This document shows positions 2,272-10,104 of a stretch of 64,000 nt of DNA, piece by piece (within the stretch, counting starts at the first letter, position 1; each line of letters starts with the position of its first letter). A model generated the notes under the pieces. It saw only the letters and a program-made list of their open reading frames with translations, was not told the DNA's origin and did not search any database. A program made the position numbers and the translations under genes. This DNA is from Shimia gijangensis (GTDB taxonomy: Bacteria > Pseudomonadota > Alphaproteobacteria > Rhodobacterales > Rhodobacteraceae), in contig NZ_FQZQ01000006.1 in the NCBI RefSeq assembly GCF_900142085.1, positions 1 through 64,000 of the forward strand. Direction: 5' to 3'.

Positions 2272-2454
2272 TCAACTTCGTTTAGTTGAAGCATACAGAG
2301 CACAGATTGAGAATGCCAAGATCATTACTACAATAAGCACAAAGCATGACGCCCAAAAGCTCAACTCAGTTTGTGAATGGTTGAAAAGTCCGCTCACCGG
2401 CCCTTCAGGTATCGCGCGGTATGAGCCCTTTTCAGAAGTTGACTGAGCTAACAA
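2272..2454 (-). CDS. possible small membrane protein
   Basis: A 60-aa open frame just upstream of the cyclase, with one strongly hydrophobic segment (about residues 33-53, WASCFVLIVVMILAFSICAL) and a basic tail. The only start is TTG and no good ribosome binding site is seen. Its position directly before the cyclase on the same strand would suit a membrane partner, but nothing else supports that. It could equally be a chance frame or the remnant of a longer membrane gene. Confidence 0.25.
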   Translation of the reverse strand: MLAQSTSEKGSYRAIPEGPVSGLFNHSQTELSFWASCFVLIVVMILAFSICALYASTKRS

Positions 2455-2469
2455 GAATTGGTCGCCACT

Positions 2470-2904
2470 CTAACGCGACATATCCTGACGCGCTGTAGTC
2501 TCGGATACCTGCGTGAACTGTGGACGACCTGCGTAGATCCCCATACGAACATCACCTCGCACATAATAGGTTTGGCCCGCCTGCGCTTGAATGGTAATGG
2601 CGTCCTGACTTATCGCTTGTGCCCAGAAAGTATGTTCGCCTGGATTGACCACTTTCTGTAGCACAGCACCGCTGGTGAGTTGGCCTACAGACCCGTCTGT
2701 ATGCTGCACGTCGAAGCGGATTGCGCCACCGGCAAACGCTGCAGGGCGGTAGAACACCACCAACGCCTTACCTGCGGGAGCCTCGAAAGATGAACCGGTC
2801 TGCATTACGGTTCCCGCCTCTTGCCCACCCATGCATGCGGTCAAAGTAGCGAGGCTGGCGAAAGCAAAAAGAAATCGGCGTCTGAGCATTGGTCGTTTTC
2901 TCAT
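2470..2904 (-). CDS. DUF2846-type lipoprotein
   Basis: A 144-aa small lipoprotein. The N terminus has a basic stretch, a hydrophobic core (FLFAFASLATLTAC) and a lipobox with cysteine 24, so it should be lipidated and anchored in the membrane facing the periplasm. The remainder has the character of DUF2846: KALVVFYRPAAFAGG, then PGEHTFWAQ and AGQTYYVRGDV. The function of that family is unknown. ATG 2889 (MLRRRFLF) is an alternative start that would give a more typical signal length. Confidence 0.7.
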   Translation of the reverse strand: MRKRPMLRRRFLFAFASLATLTACMGGQEAGTVMQTGSSFEAPAGKALVVFYRPAAFAGGAIRFDVQHTDGSVGQLTSGAVLQKVVNPGEHTFWAQAISQDAITIQAQAGQTYYVRGDVRMGIYAGRPQFTQVSETTARQDMSR

Positions 2905-2918
2905 GTTGGGTCGTCGTA

Positions 2919-3191
2919 CTATCGATCAGCTTTCAAAGTTTGTCCAACTGGCAATGTTGTCGCTCCGCTAGAAATGCGAAGGGTGAGTGTTGGCGCCAGC
3001 TTCGTCCGCGTTGTGTGAATTCGCTTCTCAAACATGCTGCGCGGCGCATCAAAGTCCGGTTCGACGGGCCGCATCGCAGCATCGGAGGTGGCCTCGGACG
3101 GCAGGTCAGGGCCGTTCGCGACAGGCTGGATTTTGTGCTCATGCGAAATGCTGCGGGACGGCATTTGGTAAAGAGGGCTCATAGCCTCCAT
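2919..3191 (-). pseudogene. possible truncated or decayed gene
   Basis: A 90-aa frame from ATG 3191 to TAG. Its first 60 codons show the GC-rich third positions typical of real genes here, with a proline-rich, disordered-looking N terminus and then a basic stretch (FEKRIHTTRTKLAP). The last third loses this pattern. It reads like the start of a longer membrane protein whose body has been lost. I do not recognise the family. Confidence 0.25.
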
Positions 3192-3298
3192 TCGACGCGT
3201 CTTCGAGCAGTCAAACCAGCTGAACTTTTGCTATGCGGGACAATGCGCCCGTTTGGTGTTATGTCCAACCTTGCGATTGCAAACCCGGAGACACCAAA

Positions 3299-3556
3299 AT
3301 GAACCTCGAAAACCTTGTTAACCGAGTAACAAAAGAAATGAATACGGCCCTTTCCGATATTCCGGATGCGGAACGGAACGCCATTCTGAGTATCGTTAAG
3401 CAAGCGATGCTCGACTCCGCTACCCGCACACATCGGGACATGAAGGAAACTGCTGTTATCTGCTGCGGCCCAGAAGCTGATCTGGTCCATAAAATCCAGG
3501 AGCAAATGGACAAGAAACGTGACATGCTTATCGCAAACTTGATGGCGATGCGGTAA
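3299..3556 (+). CDS. small hypothetical protein
   Basis: An 85-aa, largely helical and charged protein (start MNLENLVNRVTKEMNTAL) with a GGAG ribosome binding site 8 bases before ATG 3299; the frame opens further upstream but only this start has such a site. It has a CC pair at residues 55-56, no signal peptide and no membrane segment. I do not recognise it. It is the only plus-strand gene proposed left of the tRNA-Asn fragment. Confidence 0.55.
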   Translation: MNLENLVNRVTKEMNTALSDIPDAERNAILSIVKQAMLDSATRTHRDMKETAVICCGPEADLVHKIQEQMDKKRDMLIANLMAMR

Positions 3557-4012
3557 AGGCCGTCGGGTTTGGGCTCTTAGCGGCGATGCGGTGGCAAAGA
3601 ATCTGTTCTGGTTTCATATGATGAGCTGACGTTGCCGACGGCCCTGTGCGGACATTGGTGCAACCTGCAGCATCAGTCGATCTGGGCTTCATTGCCGCCA
3701 TTCGCTGCAAAAACCATCAAGGTCCGGTTTGGGCGGATTGTGTTGAAAAACTCGAAAATTTGGTTACCCCCATTTTCCGCCAATTTCCATTGCGCCCTCA
3801 AAGTCGGTGCCAATTGGCTAGAGAGGGTCATGACAGCCGTTCACATCACCAAAGCGGTGTTTTGGCCGAGCCCCTGGCCAAAAATCTCGACGCCCCTCAA
3901 CCGGCAAATTTTTCACTGATTTTCTGCAAAAACAGAGTTTTTCAACACAATCGGCCGAAAACGGGAGTTGGCTGGCCAGAGCAAAGGTCTGCTAATCCGG
4001 CTGAGCAGCCCC
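3557..4012. other. gene-free stretch with decayed mobile-element text
   Basis: No gene is supported. The stretch contains the 18-bp perfect inverted repeat described separately and ends at the stop codon of the small terminase gene. The large terminase gene expected after a small terminase is not here. Confidence 0.5.
3736..3952. repeat. inverted repeat, likely insertion-sequence remnant
   Basis: GATTGTGTTGAAAAACTC at 3736-3753 is repeated as a perfect reverse complement at 3935-3952. The arms are separated by about 180 bp with no open frame of transposase size. Outside the arms the sequences are still alike (CCGGTTTGGGCG against CCCGTTTTCGGCC after reversal). This resembles the ends of a small non-autonomous element or an internally deleted insertion sequence. 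No target duplication is obvious. Confidence 0.5.
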
Positions 4013-4405
4013 TTAACCATATTGGCTCTCAAACTGCGCCCAAGGGTCATTTTCGTCTTCGTCCTCGGGGATCTGAACGCTGTGACGACTTGTTGGGGTG
4101 CCGCCAAGCGCCGTCAGGTGCATCCGCAATTCTCGGATATGCGCGGCTGTTACATCGCCACCGCCCTGAATGCCGGCGCGAAGCCGACAGGCCGATTCAA
4201 GCAACGCTCGATCACTCGATACCAACCAGGGCAGTTCGTCGGCAAAGGTTGCCCAAGCCATCTTCTCAGGCTCAGAGAGGTACGCAGGCGGCTCACCAAG
4301 GGCTGTCAGCCCTTCAGGCTCCTGAATGTCCCTGTAACGCTCTGGGTGCTTGCTATAGGCCCCTGTGAGCTTGGCCTTGGCTAGTGGTGTTTTGGGTCTC
4401 GGCAT
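4013..4405 (-). CDS. phage terminase small subunit, P27-like
   Basis: A 130-aa protein resembling the P27 family of small terminases: a basic N terminus (MPRPKTPLAKAKLTG), the stretch PPAYLSEPEKMAWATFADEL (the family's helix that packs the DNA-binding region), then RALLESACRLRAGI, an LTALGGTPTSR segment and an acidic tail (PEDEDENDPWAQFE). Small terminases recognise the packaging site and hand DNA to the large, ATP-driven subunit. The length is normal, so it looks intact. No large subunit follows; downstream is mobile-element debris. A lone small terminase is what satellites use to redirect a helper phage's packaging motor. Confidence 0.75.
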   Translation of the reverse strand: MPRPKTPLAKAKLTGAYSKHPERYRDIQEPEGLTALGEPPAYLSEPEKMAWATFADELPWLVSSDRALLESACRLRAGIQGGGDVTAAHIRELRMHLTALGGTPTSRHSVQIPEDEDENDPWAQFESQYG

Positions 4406-4505
4406 GTCGAACCTCGGAATTTCTGAATTGGGGATGTGTGAAGAAAGCGGGGGCGTCGGTTTCGGGCGGAATGGCCCTGAGGATTAGAGGTACCCCCCCT
4501 GGTAG

Positions 4506-4539
4506 GCCGGAGCCGTGACAGGAGGTGCCACGCTCCGGC
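4506..4539. repeat. hairpin upstream of the small terminase gene
   Basis: GCCGGAGC (4506-4513) pairs with GCTCCGGC (4532-4539), and after a one-base bulge GTG (4515-4517) pairs with CAC (4529-4531), leaving an 11-base loop. No T-run follows on either strand, so it is not a standard terminator. It sits in the 217-bp gap before the terminase gene, where packaging sites are often found. Confidence 0.45.
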
Positions 4540-4622
4540 TGCGGGTGTTTTATTTGACACTCCACCGCCCGCTGGGAGCGGACGCGCGTCAAAGAGCAAT
4601 AAGCCGCGCAATCCTACCATCA

Positions 4623-4901
4623 TTAAAGCCCCCGACCGGTTGTGGCATTGAGTTGCTTCCGCATACGATCCCGTACTTTAGCCGCCTTCGCTTTGCCTAT
4701 GGGACGCTTGCCGTTTTCCCGCTTTTCCTTGGCGCGCGTGATGGCTCTCGCTACGAGTGCCGGGTCGGCATCACCATCAACCTTGATCTTGCCATTGGGC
4801 AGGCGGATGAATTTCACGTCTCCCTGCTTGTGCCTGCTTGGGCGAGGGGTCGCGAGTTCCTTGCGGGCGCGATTGTGTGCATTGCCTTTGAAGTTCATCA
4901 T
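4623..4901 (-). CDS. small basic protein of the element
   Basis: A 92-aa, strongly basic protein (MMNFKGNAHNRARKEL start) with a central stretch VKFIRLPNGKIKVDGDADP and a lysine/arginine-rich C terminus, suggesting nucleic-acid binding. I chose ATG 4901 because GGAGG lies 6 bases before it; its ATGA overlaps the stop of the preceding coiled-coil gene, so the two are probably translationally coupled. The family is not recognised. Confidence 0.6.
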   Translation of the reverse strand: MMNFKGNAHNRARKELATPRPSRHKQGDVKFIRLPNGKIKVDGDADPALVARAITRAKEKRENGKRPIGKAKAAKVRDRMRKQLNATTGRGL

Positions 4902-5509
4902 TTGATCCTCCATGCTGTGAGCAGTGCTTTCGGAATATCCCGCCGTGTCAGCGCACCATCTTCCAGCAACTCAACGACCTCTGTGCATAGGTCTTTTGAT
5001 CGCTCTGCCAATTCGCGTTGTTCCTTGGAGTACGGCGGCAATCCAGTGAGGCGAACCTGCTGGGCCTCAAGGCCCATGCGGATACGCTCCAAGTTCTCAA
5101 CGGCAACTATTTCTTCTTGGATTTGAGCAAGCCGAGAGGACCAGAGCTTTTTGAGATGCGTGGAGTATTCAGGGCGAGTATCAGCGCAAATCTTTTGCAT
5201 CGCCGCAGTGTTGGCGGATGCAATCTGGCCCTTTAGCTCCTCGATCTTTTCCCTTACTTCGGTCCGCTGTTTGACAGCCGCTTCAAGAGCCTGGCTATCA
5301 CGTGCGGATAGTCCGACGGGCTTTCTTCGACGATCCATCGGACTGCCAGGCGGAATATTGCTAGGATTTGCCCGGGACCGGATTTTTCGGATTTGCTCTG
5401 AAGCTGCCTTGTGCAAGTTCTCAGCCTCGGCAAACTCACTTTTGAGCTTCCGCAGTTCAGGCGATGCCTGCTCAGCGGCGGTTCCTTTGCTTCGAAAAAT
5501 GTCAAACAT
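4898..5509 (-). CDS. coiled-coil protein of unknown function
   Basis: A 203-aa protein with long charged helices (about residues 15-45 and 75-135) of coiled-coil type, and no signal peptide or membrane segment. ATG 5509 has an AAAGGA ribosome binding site at good spacing. Downstream it overlaps the 92-aa gene by ATGA. Phage and satellite proteins of this shape include scaffold- and regulator-like proteins, but no family can be named. Confidence 0.65.
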   Translation of the reverse strand: MFDIFRSKGTAAEQASPELRKLKSEFAEAENLHKAASEQIRKIRSRANPSNIPPGSPMDRRRKPVGLSARDSQALEAAVKQRTEVREKIEELKGQIASANTAAMQKICADTRPEYSTHLKKLWSSRLAQIQEEIVAVENLERIRMGLEAQQVRLTGLPPYSKEQRELAERSKDLCTEVVELLEDGALTRRDIPKALLTAWRIK

Positions 5510-5548
5510 TCGCTATCCTTTCTTTCGCTCCAAGATACCACACCGAAA

Positions 5549-5776
5549 TCATTCAACGTCACGCCGTAACGCGATGAACTCGCAGAAAAAATAGCCCAAT
5601 GTCTCGGCCAACAGATGCCTATTTTTCAGATCCTCAGAGCTTAGAATCCCATCTGCGTGCAGTGCCTCAAACACCCACTCTTCGACTTCAATTGTGATGG
5701 GCCGAAGGCCGCAACGTTTTCGAAGCCTGTGACGTCTCTGGCGCGCTGCGGCCAATTCGCGGTCTCGGTCATTCAT
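5549..5776 (-). CDS. small protein of unknown function
   Basis: A 75-aa protein with a basic N-terminal half (AAARQRRHRLRKRCGLRPI) and an acidic, hydrophobic C-terminal half (WVFEALHADGILSSED...), perhaps a small DNA-binding dimer. ATG 5776 lies inside the end of the replication-type gene, an 8-base overlap, suggesting translational coupling. A GTG just before it (5779) is the alternative start. Confidence 0.55.
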   Translation of the reverse strand: MNDRDRELAAARQRRHRLRKRCGLRPITIEVEEWVFEALHADGILSSEDLKNRHLLAETLGYFFCEFIALRRDVE

Positions 5777-6419
5777 CACCGATTTCCTCCGCTGTAGAAT
5801 GTTGGGGTTCTTCGCCCATACCCTTGGTAGATAAGGATGTGCCCTTTAAGGGAACGGGAGAGGTTGAATATGAGGGCTGTTCGTTCCCTTTGGTGGAACA
5901 GGCTGTTCCCTTTGGGGGAACGTGGTTATTTTGTTCGTTCCCTTTTACGGAACGTGTTGTTCCCTTAGAGGGCACAGGGTTTTGTTTTCCGTTCTTGCCG
6001 GACGGGTTGTTGGTCTTCACAGCAACAACCGGAAATTCAGAACCTTCTATCCATTGCAGGAACAAATAACTTGGGCGTGTTTCAGGTGGGCAGGCTATCT
6101 CGGTCAATTCGACTTGATGGCTGCGAGCTTCTCCGGCCATGCCTAGACTGGCCGATTTCTTAACCACAACCCACCCCTTCCGTTGCAGGTCTTGCATTGC
6201 GCGCATTGCTGTTTTTGCGTTGCAACCCACCCGATCGGCGATTTGACGTAGCGAAAGCTCAATCTTGCCGTTGTTGTTCGCTTTCGGCCCTTTCCATTCC
6301 AATTTGAGCCAAGGGTAAATGGCTTGGGCAGGCAGAGAGAGCGCCCGCCAAGCGGGACGCTCCATGTGCTGCCGGGTCATCCTGGCGAAGTGCTCATTGC
6401 CCTCTTTTCTGGGAGCCAT
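5769..6419 (-). CDS. winged-helix replication-initiator-like protein
   Basis: A 216-aa protein. Residues about 18-90 form a winged-helix region of the phage replication O/HTH_36 type: RPAWRALSLPAQAIYPWLKL, then the helix-turn-helix around LSLRQIADRVGCNAKTAMRAM and the wing KGWVVVKK. Residues 148-200 carry alternating VPxKGT and SxKGN/M blocks that are encoded by palindromic DNA repeats (separate entry). The acidic tail has no motif. By analogy with lambda O I infer that it binds those repeats and starts replication of the excised element; it could instead be a regulator. ATG 6419 overlaps the TAA of the HNH-like gene by one base. An in-frame upstream extension has no good start. Confidence 0.65.
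   Translation of the reverse strand: MAPRKEGNEHFARMTRQHMERPAWRALSLPAQAIYPWLKLEWKGPKANNNGKIELSLRQIADRVGCNAKTAMRAMQDLQRKGWVVVKKSASLGMAGEARSHQVELTEIACPPETRPSYLFLQWIEGSEFPVVAVKTNNPSGKNGKQNPVPSKGTTRSVKGNEQNNHVPPKGTACSTKGNEQPSYSTSPVPLKGTSLSTKGMGEEPQHSTAEEIGDE
5818..5975. repeat. six 17-bp palindromic repeats, candidate replication iterons
   Basis: On the minus strand the unit is GTTCCNNNAAAGGGAAC, an imperfect palindrome. Copies lie at 5959-5975, 5937-5953, 5905-5921, 5883-5899 and 5839-5855, with a decayed sixth at about 5818-5834. They form three pairs with starts 21-22 bp apart, about two helical turns. Odd and even copies are read in different frames (VPxKGT and SxKGN), so it is the DNA word rather than the peptide that is conserved. 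This is the arrangement expected for an origin inside an initiator gene. Confidence 0.6.
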
Positions 6420-6661
6420 TAGTTGCCCCCCTTGCGCTTGTGCGCTTGCTTGTGGTGCTTGCGGCAGAGCCATTGCACCATGAGAGGGCGGTCATAGTCG
6501 GGGTGATGTGCCTCGGCCTTTTCATCGCTGCAAATGGCGCAAGGCTGGCGATCAATCAGGCCGCGCCGCAGTGCCGATTGCGTTGCGACGTGCGCCCAGA
6601 CCTTCTTGGGGTTTCGCTGACGCCACCGCTCTTGCCGGGATATCTTCTTTGTTGCCACCAT
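6419..6661 (-). CDS. HNH-like zinc-binding phage protein
   Basis: An 80-aa protein with ligands C41, C44, H52/H53, C66 and H69/H70 in the pattern CAIC...AHHPDYDRPL...WLCRKHH. This resembles the small HNH-like zinc proteins found in many phages and satellites. The basic N and C termini suggest nucleic-acid binding. A complete nuclease active site (the asparagine of HNH) is not evident, so I do not claim cleavage. ATG 6661 follows closely on the very small ORF upstream; the stop overlaps the start of the replication-type gene. Confidence 0.65.
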   Translation of the reverse strand: MVATKKISRQERWRQRNPKKVWAHVATQSALRRGLIDRQPCAICSDEKAEAHHPDYDRPLMVQWLCRKHHKQAHKRKGGN

Positions 6662-6664
6662 CGC

Positions 6665-6808
6665 TTAGCTCCCCCAGATCAGGGTGGCCAAGGCGCTTGC
6701 CTGGGCTTCTGTCAGCCCGTGAAGGCGCATCAAAAGTTTTATTTGGAGTGTCTGCATTTCTCTGACCTCAAAGTTGCCTTTGACTGCGCAGAGTGGTAGG
6801 TTTTGCAT
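6665..6808 (-). CDS. very small ORF before the HNH-like gene
   Basis: A 47-aa frame from ATG 6808, or 30 aa from ATG 6757, which has GAGG 8 bases before it. The shorter form begins MQTLQIKLLMRLHGLTEAQA and ends LATLIWGS, a helical, leucine-rich peptide. It ends three bases before the ATG of the HNH-like gene, as expected for a coupled leader gene. The function is unknown. Confidence 0.45.
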   Translation of the reverse strand: MQNLPLCAVKGNFEVREMQTLQIKLLMRLHGLTEAQASALATLIWGS

Positions 6809-6841
6809 TAGAGAAGCCCGCTAAGCCTCTGAATTGCAAAG

Positions 6842-6874
6842 CCCCCGCCGCGCCGTCGCAGGTGGGGGTTTTTT
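6842..6874 (+). terminator. rho-independent terminator reading rightward
   Basis: CCCCCGCC (6842-6849) pairs with GGTGGGGG (6861-6868), including one G-U pair, and is followed by six T (6869-6874). In the leftward direction the same site has an A-C mismatch and only three T, so the rightward reading is the better one. No plus-strand gene precedes it. It covers the stop codon of the AlpA-type gene. Confidence 0.55.
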
Positions 6875-7067
6875 ATGCGACTTGTGCAGATTGACCGTCG
6901 AGCCACTCGAGGATTTCGGCTTCGCGCCAAAATCTGCGACGCCCGATGTAAACCGGTTTAGGGAAGCCCGATTCAGGTTCGTTGAGGCGACGCCAAATCC
7001 ACATATCGGATACGTCACCACAGATTTGCCGGACTGTTTTTGCAGTAATTCGTTTGTGTGAGTTCAT
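6873..7067 (-). CDS. AlpA/excisionase-family DNA-binding protein
   Basis: A 64-aa winged-helix protein of the MerR-like AlpA/excisionase type: ITAKTVRQICGDVSDMWIWR contains the recognition helix, followed by GFPKPVYIGRRRFW (the wing) and the helix AEILEWLDGQ. Such proteins activate integrase and replication genes or act as excision factors in satellites and P4-like elements. The start ATG 7067 has GAAAGG upstream. It stands apart from the integrase pair (107-bp gap), so it probably has its own promoter. Confidence 0.75.
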   Translation of the reverse strand: MNSHKRITAKTVRQICGDVSDMWIWRRLNEPESGFPKPVYIGRRRFWREAEILEWLDGQSAQVA

Positions 7068-7173
7068 CGCCGTTACCTTTCGTTAAAACGGTTACGGCTT
7101 CCTAATATTCACACAATCTGCCCCGACGCCAAAGAATTGGGGTTCAGAAAACTAACTGTTTTCCCGGACTGGC

Positions 7174-7581
7174 TTAATCCAAGAGTCGCTCGGCAATGTT
7201 ACGTAGGCGCGTTTCCTCGCGCGCTGCCCTTAATGCATCGAAGCATTTCGTTCTAGAAGTGCCGGCTTTGCCGAACTTCTGCTTCACTCGATATATGGCT
7301 TCATCAGCACTCAATCCCTCGTCATCGACAAGCTTGAGCATTTCAAACCCGACCGCCCAATCAGGACCCTTTGGTCTCCCGACGTTTTCGTGCCGCAACG
7401 CGAGGCAAAACCTGTCCTTTTTTCCAGTGGGATCAATCATATGAGAAAGCATTTTTTGGAACAGAGTAGATGCCCCCCCAGTCGATAAAACAGCCGCTAT
7501 CCTTGAAGCCCTTTCCTCAAGATCCATTGGCTCTTCTAGGTTTTCAGTTAACACGACCCAATCCGGCTTTTCCTCTGTCAT
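7174..7581 (-). CDS. unknown protein coupled to the integrase
   Basis: A 135-aa protein starting MTEEKPDWVVLTENLEEP. The C-terminal half (GLSADEAIYRVKQKFGKAGTSRTKCFDAL) has the length and spacing of a helix-turn-helix. Its ATG (7581) overlaps the integrase stop as ATGA, so it is translated together with the integrase. An excision or regulatory role is possible from position alone. I do not recognise the family. Confidence 0.6.
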   Translation of the reverse strand: MTEEKPDWVVLTENLEEPMDLEERASRIAAVLSTGGASTLFQKMLSHMIDPTGKKDRFCLALRHENVGRPKGPDWAVGFEMLKLVDDEGLSADEAIYRVKQKFGKAGTSRTKCFDALRAAREETRLRNIAERLLD

Positions 7582-8828
7582 TTGATCACCCCCAATTGCA
7601 CAACGTTTGCCGCCCCGCCCTCGGCAATGTCGGCCACAAGCCGCGACCAAGCCTCTAAGGCCCCTCTTTTTTCTTCCAGATAGTCATATTGGTTATAAAC
7701 CCGCGCCATTCGGTGCTGGCCGGTCACGTGGTTGGTTACTCGGTCAATATGCTCTTGAGGTACTCGCAACCGAGCCATGCCGGTTTCCGCTGTTCTTCGT
7801 AGGTCGTGAAAGGTCCAATGCGGTATTTCCTCTTCCTCGCCCCGCTCCTCTGAAGCAAGAACCGTCATCTGATCGGCGATGTAATTTCGCGCCTTGTGAA
7901 AACCACTGACGGGCGTCTCCCCGTTTGTGGTGAACACATAGCCAGGCTTGCCTTCAATCATCTCAACGCTTGCCAGAACGCGTAGAGCGCCCTCAGACAA
8001 TGGCACGTCATGCGATAGGCCATTCTTGGTGCGCCCAGAGTCGAGATGCCACAGGTCGCCCTTGACTTCGCCCTCTGTCATCTGGGCAACTTCATTGAGC
8101 CTTTGAGACGTAAGCAACAGCATCTTACCGAATTTGCCCCAAGGCTCTCTGACGGCTTCACATGCAGCCCAGAACCACCGAATTTCATCGTCGTTTAAGA
8201 CACGCTTTCGGTGTTGCTCCTTTAGGGGAGCTTTTACGCCCGTGGTAGGGGCGTATTCGATAACGTCGCGCTCAACGCACCAGTTGAAGAATTTGCGGGT
8301 ATGGGCAAGCACTCTGTTTGCCGTAGTTTCGCGCCCGCTGTCGCAAATCTCATCTAGCAAATCGACAACATCGCGCTTGGTTATCTCGTGCACGTCAAGC
8401 TCACCCCAAGCCAGAACAACAAACCTGTCCAGGAACTGCTTGGCGCTCGCCCTACTCTTCAATGTGGAAAGGTGCCTTTTGTCGTACTGCTCAATGAGGG
8501 TCTTTATCTTATCTCGCTCAGAAATCTGTGCTTCGAGTTGAGCAGCCTTGGTTGCCCTCTTAATGGCGCTTGGGTCCTTCCCATAGTCAATCTGTTCTAT
8601 CGCATCGGAGGCAGCAGAGCGCGCGTCAGCCACGCCCATAATGGGCCACTTGCCCAGAGTTAGCTTCTTTGGTTTCCCTGCAAAACGATAACGCAGCGCC
8701 CATGATTTTGAACCACTTGGCTGAATTACAAGGTAAAGGCCGGAAAGGGCTGGATCGGCTATTTCCTGCCTCCTTTTCGGATCTGGTTTTTGGTTTTCGA
8801 CTGATTTTGTGGTCAGAGCGCGAGCCAT
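7578..8828 (-). CDS. tyrosine site-specific integrase
   Basis: A 416-aa integrase of the P4/DUF4102 type. The N-terminal arm-binding domain shows PSGSKSWALRYRFAGKPKKL and LGKWPIMGVADARSAA; a SAM-like core-binding domain follows (about 100-190); the catalytic domain has R in LLLTSQRLNEV, HDLRRT, H in ...NHVTG and the nucleophile tyrosine near NQYDYLEEK. The start ATG has GAGGACC upstream. It lies 185 bp from the tRNA-Asn fragment and points away from it, so it is the enzyme expected to have made that junction. Confidence 0.9.
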   Translation of the reverse strand: MARALTTKSVENQKPDPKRRQEIADPALSGLYLVIQPSGSKSWALRYRFAGKPKKLTLGKWPIMGVADARSAASDAIEQIDYGKDPSAIKRATKAAQLEAQISERDKIKTLIEQYDKRHLSTLKSRASAKQFLDRFVVLAWGELDVHEITKRDVVDLLDEICDSGRETTANRVLAHTRKFFNWCVERDVIEYAPTTGVKAPLKEQHRKRVLNDDEIRWFWAACEAVREPWGKFGKMLLLTSQRLNEVAQMTEGEVKGDLWHLDSGRTKNGLSHDVPLSEGALRVLASVEMIEGKPGYVFTTNGETPVSGFHKARNYIADQMTVLASEERGEEEEIPHWTFHDLRRTAETGMARLRVPQEHIDRVTNHVTGQHRMARVYNQYDYLEEKRGALEAWSRLVADIAEGGAANVVQLGVIK

Positions 8829-8862
8829 GTCGAATGGTCCTCAGAAAAATCAAATGGTCGTC

Positions 8863-8910
8863 AGGGGTAACACAGGGGTAACACTTTTGACTGTTTTGCA
8901 CCGTTACCCC
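8863..8910. repeat. GGGGTAAC repeats upstream of the integrase gene
   Basis: AGGGGTAACAC occurs twice in tandem (8863-8873, 8874-8884) and its core returns inverted as GTTACCCC at 8903-8910. The site lies between the integrase start and the attachment core. Such repeats next to an attachment core are typical arm-type binding sites for integrase or sites for an excision factor. Confidence 0.5.
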
Positions 8911-9012
8911 AAGTTAGCAACTTACTCTAACGGAAGCAAGTACCTTACTATTTTTAAACGTATATTTTTTGTGGATAGCTTTACATAGTTAGGGACTGAA
9001 AGGTTGTAAATT

Positions 9013-9061
9013 TTGACTGTTAATCAATTGGTCGTAGGTTCGATCCCTACCGCCGGAGCCA
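9013..9061 (+). other. attachment site: 3' half of tRNA-Asn (GTT)
   Basis: The sequence runs from the anticodon stem (TTGACTGTTAATCAA, anticodon GTT) through the T arm (GTAGGTTCGATCCCTAC) to the acceptor strand and encoded CCA. Upstream there is no D arm and no 5' acceptor strand (TCCGGCG would be expected), so no functional tRNA can be made here. The remaining 48-49 bases are the likely crossover identity of an element that carries its own copy of the tRNA 3' half. The intact gene should lie at the other end of the element, outside this window. Confidence 0.8.
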
Positions 9062-9062
9062 T

Positions 9063-9098
9063 AAAAAGCTTCTAACCTCAACGGGTTGGAGGCTTTTT
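9063..9098 (+). terminator. tRNA-Asn terminator
   Basis: AAAAAGCTTCTAACC and GGTTGGAGGCTTTTTT form a stem around a TCAAC loop and end in a T-run. It is the natural terminator of the tRNA gene and marks the resumption of the host chromosome. Confidence 0.7.
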
Positions 9099-9107
9099 TG
9101 GTTTTAG

Positions 9108-9436
9108 ATGGCAGACATCTCGTCGATCAGAAATCTGGACCCGGCCTATCAGGATGCCTGTCACCGTGCGGGCATCTCTTGTGCGCAAGACTTGCACAGT
9201 CTCGGCGCAGACAAAGCCTATGCACGTTTGTTGGAAACCGGCACCAAACCGCACTTTATTGGGTACTATGTATTGGTTATCGCCCTTCAGGGTCGTCCCT
9301 GGAACGATTGCAAAGGCAAAGAAAACAAGCTTTAAGAAAACGGTTTGATGCCATCAAGGCCAAGTCGTTTGACGCCGGGTCGTCAGAACTTGAAACTGTA
9401 TTGAACCAGATCGACGTAATAGAGAAACCGAAATAA
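9108..9436 (+). pseudogene. TfoX C-terminal-domain-like gene with a frameshift
   Basis: The reading begins at ATG 9108 (MADISSIRNLDPAYQDACHR), has the helix-hairpin-helix look of the TfoX C-terminal domain (AGISCAQDLHSLGADKAYARLL, then ALQGRPWNDCKGKE) and hits a stop at 9333-9335. The continuation KQALRKRFDAIKAKSF lies in the -1 frame and ends at 9436. One extra A in the run at 9322-9325 would restore a single protein of about 109 aa. Either the gene is broken or there is a one-base sequencing error; a programmed shift is less likely, as no good slippery heptamer is seen. Known members relate to competence or are unassigned. Confidence 0.6.
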
Positions 9437-9438
9437 AA

Positions 9439-9464
9439 AACGCCCAAGGTGAACCCCGGGCGTT
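9439..9464. terminator. hairpin between convergent genes
   Basis: AACGCCC (9439-9445) pairs with GGGCGTT (9458-9464). An A-run precedes it on the plus strand, so it works best as a terminator for leftward transcription, that is for ndk. Confidence 0.5.
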
Positions 9465-9498
9465 CCAATCTTCATCTTGTCACAAATACTCTGGGGGT

Positions 9499-9517
9499 GC
9501 GGGGGCAAGGCCCCCGC
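9499..9517. terminator. GC hairpin downstream of ndk
   Basis: GCGGGGGC (9499-9506) and GCCCCCGC (9510-9517) form a perfect 8-bp stem with a 3-base loop. It lacks a T-run but lies 35 bases after the ndk stop, and may help end or protect that transcript. Confidence 0.4.
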
Positions 9518-9551
9518 CCTGTCGGATTACCATTCGGCAATCCGAAACCCT

Positions 9552-9974
9552 TTAGCCAACAAGCTCGAGGCCCGAGAAGAAGTAAGCGATTTCAACCGCT
9601 GCAGTTTCCGGAGCGTCCGATCCGTGAACCGAGTTTTCGCCCACTGATTCCGCAAATTCTGCGCGGATCGTACCGGGAGCGGCGTCGCTTGGGTTGGTGG
9701 CGCCCATGACTTCGCGGTTTTTTGCGATGGCGCCTTCGCCTTCCAGAACCTGCGCAACGATTGGCTCAGACGCCATGAATTCGCACAGTTCGTCATAGAA
9801 TGGGCGTTCTGCGTGCACCGAATAGAAGACACCAGCCTGAGCTTTGGTCAGGTGAATACGCTTTTGCGCAACAACGCGAAGACCAGCTTCTTCGAATTTT
9901 GCGTTGATCGCACCGGTCAGGTTGCGGCGTGTGGCGTCGGGTTTGATGATTGAGAACGTGCGTTCCAGAGCCAT
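9552..9974 (-). CDS. ndk: nucleoside diphosphate kinase
   Basis: A 140-aa cytoplasmic enzyme that transfers the gamma phosphate from ATP to nucleoside diphosphates through a phospho-histidine. It has the family start [18 protein letters not shown] and the active-site stretch [14 protein letters not shown] with the catalytic histidine. The length is standard. ATG 9974 has AGGAGAT upstream; the frame is open further upstream but without support. It is monocistronic and divergent from the ABC-F gene, with two hairpins downstream. Confidence 0.97.
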
Positions 9975-10104
9975 GGTCTTATCTCCTGTAATGGGGAATA
10001 GGCACCCTGCCCGCCCCTGTTCGAATTTGCGCTCCGATAGCATGAGGAAAGCAACTTGAAAAGCGGTGATTGACGCCGCGCCTTGCTTGGGTCAAACGGT
10101 GCTC

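Follow-up and report, generated by a model that had tools for sequence, protein, structure and literature searches.

A probable replication origin and its putative initiator in small phage-like elements from Rhodobacterales

Phage lambda carries palindromic iterons inside the gene of its initiator O, a protein with a winged-helix N terminus. The first-pass annotation of the locus described here had drawn this comparison, which is loose: the O-like PHROG matches are weak, the geometry is different, no C-terminal domain is seen, and RepA-type initiators and the RepA of PLE, a phage satellite of Vibrio cholerae, are closer. In the published accounts on which we draw, PLE RepA is of the RepA_N type, and RepA_N iterons are semi-palindromic and converge on a poly-A tract (PMC7145576, PMC8263062). 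These accounts place three PLE iterons, each about 30 bp long, in noncoding DNA and also describe a C-terminal domain and a large serine recombinase; two replicon types occur among five PLEs, and DNA-binding domain and origin covary between elements (PMC7145576, PMC8263062). As described for the plasmid pSK41, four Rep boxes lie within rep, and the linker stretch encoded there is dispensable (PMC5703833). In repABC plasmids, oriV is placed within repC and tied to an A+T-rich region (PMC3155836). With PLE, pSK41 and repABC there are thus precedents for each single feature: palindromic iterons, covariation, and an origin located within the gene of its initiator.

The locus in Shimia gijangensis consists of five 17-bp palindromes and a conserved anchor motif within an initiator-like gene. 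Judging from the sequence, these repeats probably serve a small phage-like element as its replication origin. The best reading, by analogy, is that of an iteron origin and initiator of a Rhodobacterales phage-like family, which would work like RepA and ori of PLE. Shared with PLE, as far as it is described in the sources cited, are a mobile phage-related element, semi-palindromic iterons and the covariation of DNA-binding domain and origin (PMC7145576, PMC8263062). The present family differs in its five 17-bp sites with a mostly fixed geometry and an anchor, in its 25 called half-words, in the tyrosine integrase found in the window in place of a large serine recombinase, and in that no C-terminal domain was seen. 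The RepA_N plasmid initiators of pSK41 and pTZ2162 are the nearest solved folds, as weak matches (PMC5703833, PMC7145576, as far as these describe them); here, in contrast, the hosts are alphaproteobacterial, no C-terminal domain was seen, and the RepA_N family PF06970 is matched by only one of 84 members. The likeness to repABC would be an origin situated within an alphaproteobacterial initiator gene, whereas an iteron array like the present one is absent from the description consulted (PMC3155836). We found no description of this origin family in the open-licence literature; as far as open-licence papers go, the family is new, and so are its short protein, its five-site geometry with the anchor, the wide range of its words and the signature in the recognition helix.

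The palindromic array and its anchor

The window (the whole stretch of 64,000 nucleotides that was analysed) contains the five palindromic 17-mers reported by the first-pass annotation, at 5839-5975. They are genuine, and fit the consensus of the minus (coding) strand, GTTCCNNNAAAGGGAAC, at a tolerance of one or two mismatches. The plus-strand consensus GTTCCCTTTNNNGGAAC, searched on both strands with up to two mismatches, occurs at no further place in the window; chance therefore does not account for the cluster. The gene, palindromes and anchor are located as follows.

5769-6419, minus strand: initiator-like gene, 216 amino acids, ATG at 6419
5959-5975, minus strand: palindrome 1, GTGCCCTCTAAGGGAAC
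5937-5953, minus strand: palindrome 2, GTTCCGTAAAAGGGAAC
5905-5921, minus strand: palindrome 3, GTTCCCCCAAAGGGAAC
5883-5899, minus strand: palindrome 4, GTTCCACCAAAGGGAAC
5839-5855, minus strand: palindrome 5, GTTCCCTTAAAGGGCAC, abutting the anchor with no gap
5825-5838, minus strand: anchor motif ATCCTTATCTACCA, conserved across homologous loci

In coding order, the palindromes start 22, 32, 22 and 44 bp apart. With these spacings the reading frame alternates and two peptide words result, VPxKGT and SxKGN; that part of the first-pass description is correct. The grouping into three pairs 21-22 bp apart holds for two pairs, both at 22 bp, and fails for the third, the layout being pair, pair, single, anchor. 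The supposed decayed sixth copy (about 5818-5834) is not a repeat: homologues have the conserved non-palindromic motif ATCCTTA-N-CTACCA there, and the stretch is the end of the anchor (minus strand 5838-5825).

Across 68 aligned loci, the first 10 bp of the anchor form the block of highest A+T content (0.71), and in the centre of palindrome 5 A occurs at positions -11, -10, -9 and -8 with frequencies of 0.74, 0.54, 0.66 and 0.56. Convergence of semi-palindromic iterons on an A tract, a RepA_N trait, is found here at the centre of palindrome 5, and we consider the anchor a candidate for the element at which strands open or loading occurs. Another block rich in A+T (0.67) lies ahead of palindrome 1, about -150 to -141 from the anchor, and reads AAAACAAAACCC in some loci; apart from these two blocks, no classical A+T-rich unwinding region was seen in the 68 aligned loci. 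A reading of the anchor as a DnaA-trio was rejected, because the triplets, judged by eye, match only partly.

Homologous loci were taken from 14 of 194 genomes of relatives, 50 of 394 genomes of the family, IMG/VR (one locus, then 27 loci) and 71 organism-named genome contigs, mainly from Rhodobacterales and some from Rhizobiales. The 146 loci that entered the anchor scan include some places found twice; the strict anchor pattern was present in 86 of them, which gave 69 distinct arrays, a set thus selected by the anchor motif. Palindromes start within 2 bp of positions -138, -116, -83 and -61 before the anchor in 61, 67, 64 and 67 of the 69 arrays, respectively, while the site at -17 seeds the search and is present in all 69 by construction. 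The complete five-site set is found in 59 of the 69, and the mean number of sites per array is 5.07, versus 1.47 in shuffles that retain the last site. With a template free of the anchor, 76 of 117 scored loci (out of 120 distinct ones) exceed the maximum of 232 control stretches, comprising 69 of 87 close homologues, 3 of 4 intermediate ones and only 4 of 26 distant ones. One locus (L023) has an interval that is 10 bp longer, a whole helical turn, and this single case suggests that helical phase, rather than exact interval length, may matter.

The distribution of the family has further features. A genome of the window's genus (G022) and a Shimia aestuarii contig have the array in common. A distant group (L007, L010, L013, L014, L015 and L018) differs in its palindromes and in its anchors (ACACTAATACTAACCA; ACATATATAGATATAGCCA), with ATATAG repeated in some of its members. 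No relatives of two query proteins were found in 50,697 phage records, and one query protein gave three matches in 72,556 plasmids, only one of them close. A close homologue resides on the Mesorhizobium plasmid NZ_CP080533.1 (357,630 bp) at 89750-90160, with 63.5% identity to the L006 protein.

Selection acts on the DNA of the array

The gene in the window runs through the array and thereby encodes a tail that is predicted to be disordered (residues 135-210 have pLDDT values below 50 in a model based on a shallow alignment of seven, with an overall mean of 59). In most relatives, the gene stops within or before the array, and the median length of the initiator cluster is 177 amino acids. Among the 69 anchored arrays, the palindromes keep their positions, whereas the stop codon may lie up to 166 nt ahead of the anchor or up to 181 nt past it. 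In 12 of these arrays every detected canonical site lies beyond the stop, in 9 all sites are in frame, and in 48 the array is split or cut.

An explanation at the protein level would be that tandem KGT/KGN peptides are selected and the palindromes are a by-product. The peptides are indeed translated in the window, but the 12 arrays with all detected sites past the stop keep the DNA and not the peptide, and the encoded tail is predicted to be disordered. Against five homologues, moreover, third codon positions agree better across the array (0.63-0.75) than across the domain (0.39-0.51), and for amino-acid identity the order is reversed (0.44-0.62 versus 0.66-0.74). We therefore discard selection on the peptide, which retains next to no probability. 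Selection acts on the DNA, as had been proposed from the alternating frames, and the comparison across homologues came out opposite to the pattern, peptides kept and palindromes lost, that the first-pass annotation had set against its own proposal.

Winged-helix protein and word covariation

From about residue 10 to 130, AlphaFold2 gives the window protein a winged-helix model, with a predicted recognition helix at residues 68-80 (mean pLDDT 86.9). A C-terminal domain, a feature of RepA_N proteins, was not seen in the shallow-alignment model, where residues 135-210 stay below pLDDT 50. The PHROG matches of the window protein are to initiator-like families, including a weak one to the O-like phrog_391 (3.6e-4); 4 of 84 members match the O-like family at 0.001. 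Over the whole family, the PHROG matches are mainly DnaD-like helicase loaders (22/84) and replication initiators (20/84 for the best). Four of the five best matches in a PDB fold search are RepA-type initiators; their chains, headed by 4pql, 4pt7, 5kbj and 4pta, take ranks 1, 2, 3, 5, 6, 7 and 10, with weak scores (E 2.3e-3 to 1.5e-2, TM 0.37-0.52). Searched against PDB sequences, the profile matches 4pta across residues 11-95, also weakly (E 0.012), and ordinary winged-helix regulators align to the helix region alone, some of them with better E-values. A viral fold library returned 42 matches at 0.001, many named as helix-turn-helix proteins and some as replication initiators. One of the 84 members matches PF06970 (3.8e-4), and the window protein does not at 0.001; a whole-genome search of 10 genomes with PF06970 gave zero matches, with the controls at zero as well.

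The regulator-like matches raise the question of an operator array, in which the palindromes would let a winged-helix transcription regulator control the packaging genes that lie downstream in relatives. Crp, MarR and GntR-type winged helices are indeed among the weak Pfam matches, and several such regulators outscore RepA in the PDB sequence search. However, the array follows its own gene and is often partly inside it, the PHROG matches are replication initiators and DnaD-like loaders, and RepA heads the fold list. Five fixed sites and a non-palindromic anchor over about 150 bp would be unusual for operators. A sigma-70-type promoter was sought at 5600-6700 and gave no match, which carries little weight since only 0.3 were expected. 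We consider operators unlikely, and return to the reading as origin and initiator.

The word of the palindromes varies among loci and is largely common to the copies within one locus. Among the 69 arrays, 25 half-words were called, the commonest being GTCACC (12), GTCCCC (10), GTCATC (9) and GTCATG (7). The outer GT of the half-site is nearly constant (GTC, or GTT/GTG) and the inner triplet is variable, with an agreement of 0.803 within arrays versus 0.428 between them. Sites that match 11-12 of the 12 positions of a locus's own word number 204 in the arrays and 6 outside (824,333 bases, 69 loci), and a reversed-word control gave no site outside the arrays. Two copies could be compared in each of three genomes, and their words differ every time: GTTCCC versus GCACC in the window's genome, and in G440 and G430 as read from the printed sequences. 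The second initiator in the window's genome is divergent (L160, contig C66, 14816-15565); it goes with the word GCACC and the anchor variant ATATCTAATAACCA.

To follow these words into the protein, we used 63 proteins with less than 85% identity. By the z score of mutual information against shuffles over 136 columns, residue 69 leads at half-site positions 4 and 5, and residue 73 at position 6. At positions 1-3 the leading columns lie outside the recognition helix, so we limit the claim of covariation to the inner triplet. Once background divergence is corrected for, K69 (0.416), N67 (0.376), R73 (0.249) and A68 (0.176) lead the 129 columns, followed by a column at 0.153; the four residues that track the word best lie at the start of the predicted recognition helix. 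Their joint value of 0.531 is reached by none of 2000 permutations and by no set in 1000 random draws of four variable columns, the latter test being not fully independent because the four helix columns were picked after the first ranking.

The clearest case is the lysine at residue 69. Among the 63 proteins, 18 belong to arrays with CC at half-site positions 4-5, and 15 of these have the lysine, as against 4 of the remaining 45. Conversely, CC arrays go with 15 of the 19 K proteins and 3 of the 44 others (Fisher p 2e-8, uncorrected for descent). A held-out set of 26 tabulated loci, some probably one element found twice, includes 11 with scores of at least 42, above all controls; K69 is found in 8 of the 9 CC arrays among these 11 and in neither of the other two. 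At scores of at least 38, 16 loci have K with CC, two have K without CC, one has CC without K, and three have neither. Exceptions to the rule are L113 (K, no CC called) and L115 (CC, N), and L068, which lies below the thresholds with CC called at a score of 37, has N and is also off the rule.

This covariation bears on the idea that the repeats act in the RNA, as hairpins or terminators where the transcript ends (3'). Two of the palindromes are terminator-like on the plus strand, which is the strand opposite the gene, and an RNA hairpin has no need of a word that tracks recognition-helix residues; we regard this idea as highly improbable. The first-pass reading as origin and initiator, in comparison, is well supported by the initiator-like families, the fold and the covariation between word and recognition helix, from which we infer it.

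Element context and proposed mechanism

The neighbouring genes in the window point to a mobile element.

6419-6661, minus strand: endonuclease gene (phrog_2340) whose stop overlaps the start of the initiator gene
6873-7067, minus strand: AlpA-like excisionase/regulator
7578-8828, minus strand: tyrosine integrase
4013-4405, minus strand: terminase small subunit-like (TerS-like) gene (phrog_83, 1.8e-13)
9014-9069, plus strand: 3' fragment of tRNA-Asn adjoining the integrase, a candidate attachment site, seen by eye and checked

The complete tRNA-Asn of this genome is on another contig, and a search for direct repeats as attachment sites within 2300-10100 found the iterons as the sole repeats. 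The window element has an integrase, AlpA, an endonuclease, the putative initiator and origin, and a TerS-like gene, the last and the endonuclease being the only candidate head or packaging genes found in the window; it may be small or truncated. An open frame at 386-2275, which we take to resemble a class III adenylate cyclase with TPR repeats, is possibly cargo or flanking chromosome.

Among relatives, integrase genes are nearby, mostly upstream, in 47 of 55 loci (the window and the 54 of 69 with long enough DNA). L107 has a tyrosine integrase, Ad1 and Hc1 connectors, TerL, a major head protein and a protease, plus a serine-recombinase-like ORF at 678-2375; L041 has a portal, a head protein and HNH. 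A topoisomerase-like gene (329 amino acids; phrog_6247, one member scanned) lies just upstream of the initiator at L056:6979-7968 and in seven further loci, its cluster being present in 8 of 55. The Pfam and PHROG scans of neighbours covered stretches around the initiator rather than whole elements, and the PHROG results are those of 25 listed families out of 118. In 108 proteins of 12 IMG/VR loci, Pfam matches include eight each to capsid, protease and integrase families, six to portal and five to TerL; among the 25 of 26 families listed, none is named as helicase, primase, polymerase or tail, and DUF2793 and BclA_C, seen once each, could be tail or fibre proteins.

The terminase genes next to the array are also what a centromere or packaging site would have as neighbours, where a partition adaptor or packaging recogniser would mark the DNA for segregation or for terminase. 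Centromere arrays, too, contain iterated palindromes. However, no ParA-type family is among the listed Pfam families (25 of 26) of the 108 neighbouring proteins, there being one ParB_N match, and the fold and PHROG matches indicate initiation. We find this explanation quite improbable, and keep the origin reading.

The window element resembles capsid-forming PICIs in its integrase, AlpA and TerS, as do relatives in their head and packaging genes. PICIs usually carry a primase-type Rep, whereas here the protein is a short DNA-binding one, and tape-measure-like matches occur in 6 of 14 complete IMG/VR records of relatives. These records are 12.6-18.2 kb long, with one of 44 kb, and can be fragments; 10 of the 14 have a capsid family. 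The tape-measure family was matched at E <= 0.001 in the six, two of them over the cut-off, and the other eight records may be fragments. PHROG identified clear tape measure proteins (phrog_10574) in both of the tape-measure records that were scanned with it, one of which also has a tail terminator. These proteins (L163:2800-5223 and L164:3037-5004, minus strand) are in records of 16.7-18.2 kb with TerS or TerL adjacent, which would be unusually small tailed elements if complete. A tail-less satellite for the whole family was dropped on account of the tape-measure-like matches, and the class was moved from satellite to satellite or small phage: some relatives, with head and tail genes, may be small temperate phages, and others may be satellites. 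The array, the code and the reading as an origin are unaffected by the tail genes.

We consider it very likely that a small integrative phage-like element has its replication origin in the array and anchor, and that the gene which contains or precedes them encodes the initiator. In the mechanism that we propose, dimers of the winged-helix protein would bind the five 17-bp palindromes, set at intervals of about 2, 3, 2 and 4 helical turns (a phasing taken from the spacings alone). The inner triplet would be read by residues 67, 68, 69 and 73, and it changes in all copies along with these residues. The protein-DNA complex would end at ATCCTTA-N-CTACCA, where the strands may open or the replisome may be loaded. 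A DnaB-type helicase (DnaB_C) is found in none of the 14 IMG/VR records of relatives, and the replisome would thus probably come from the host or a helper phage.

Beyond this, we see an even chance that small phage-like elements of Rhodobacterales and Rhizobiales form a natural series with mutually orthogonal origins, in which a rigid chassis of five palindromes and an anchor is maintained and the word is rewritten together with four helix residues. The initiator would be reduced to a DNA-binding domain, so that few substitutions could change the specificity and the replisome would have to come from elsewhere. If true, private origin specificities would avoid incompatibility or origin-targeting nucleases. 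With one fold, one geometry and many words, the family offers a dataset for a natural protein-DNA recognition code and its evolution, and makes testable how a matched initiator and origin change together. The arrays and their genes are candidate minimal replicons, of which natural pairs may not cross-react, and the family may extend RepA_N-like initiation to alphaproteobacterial phage-like elements.
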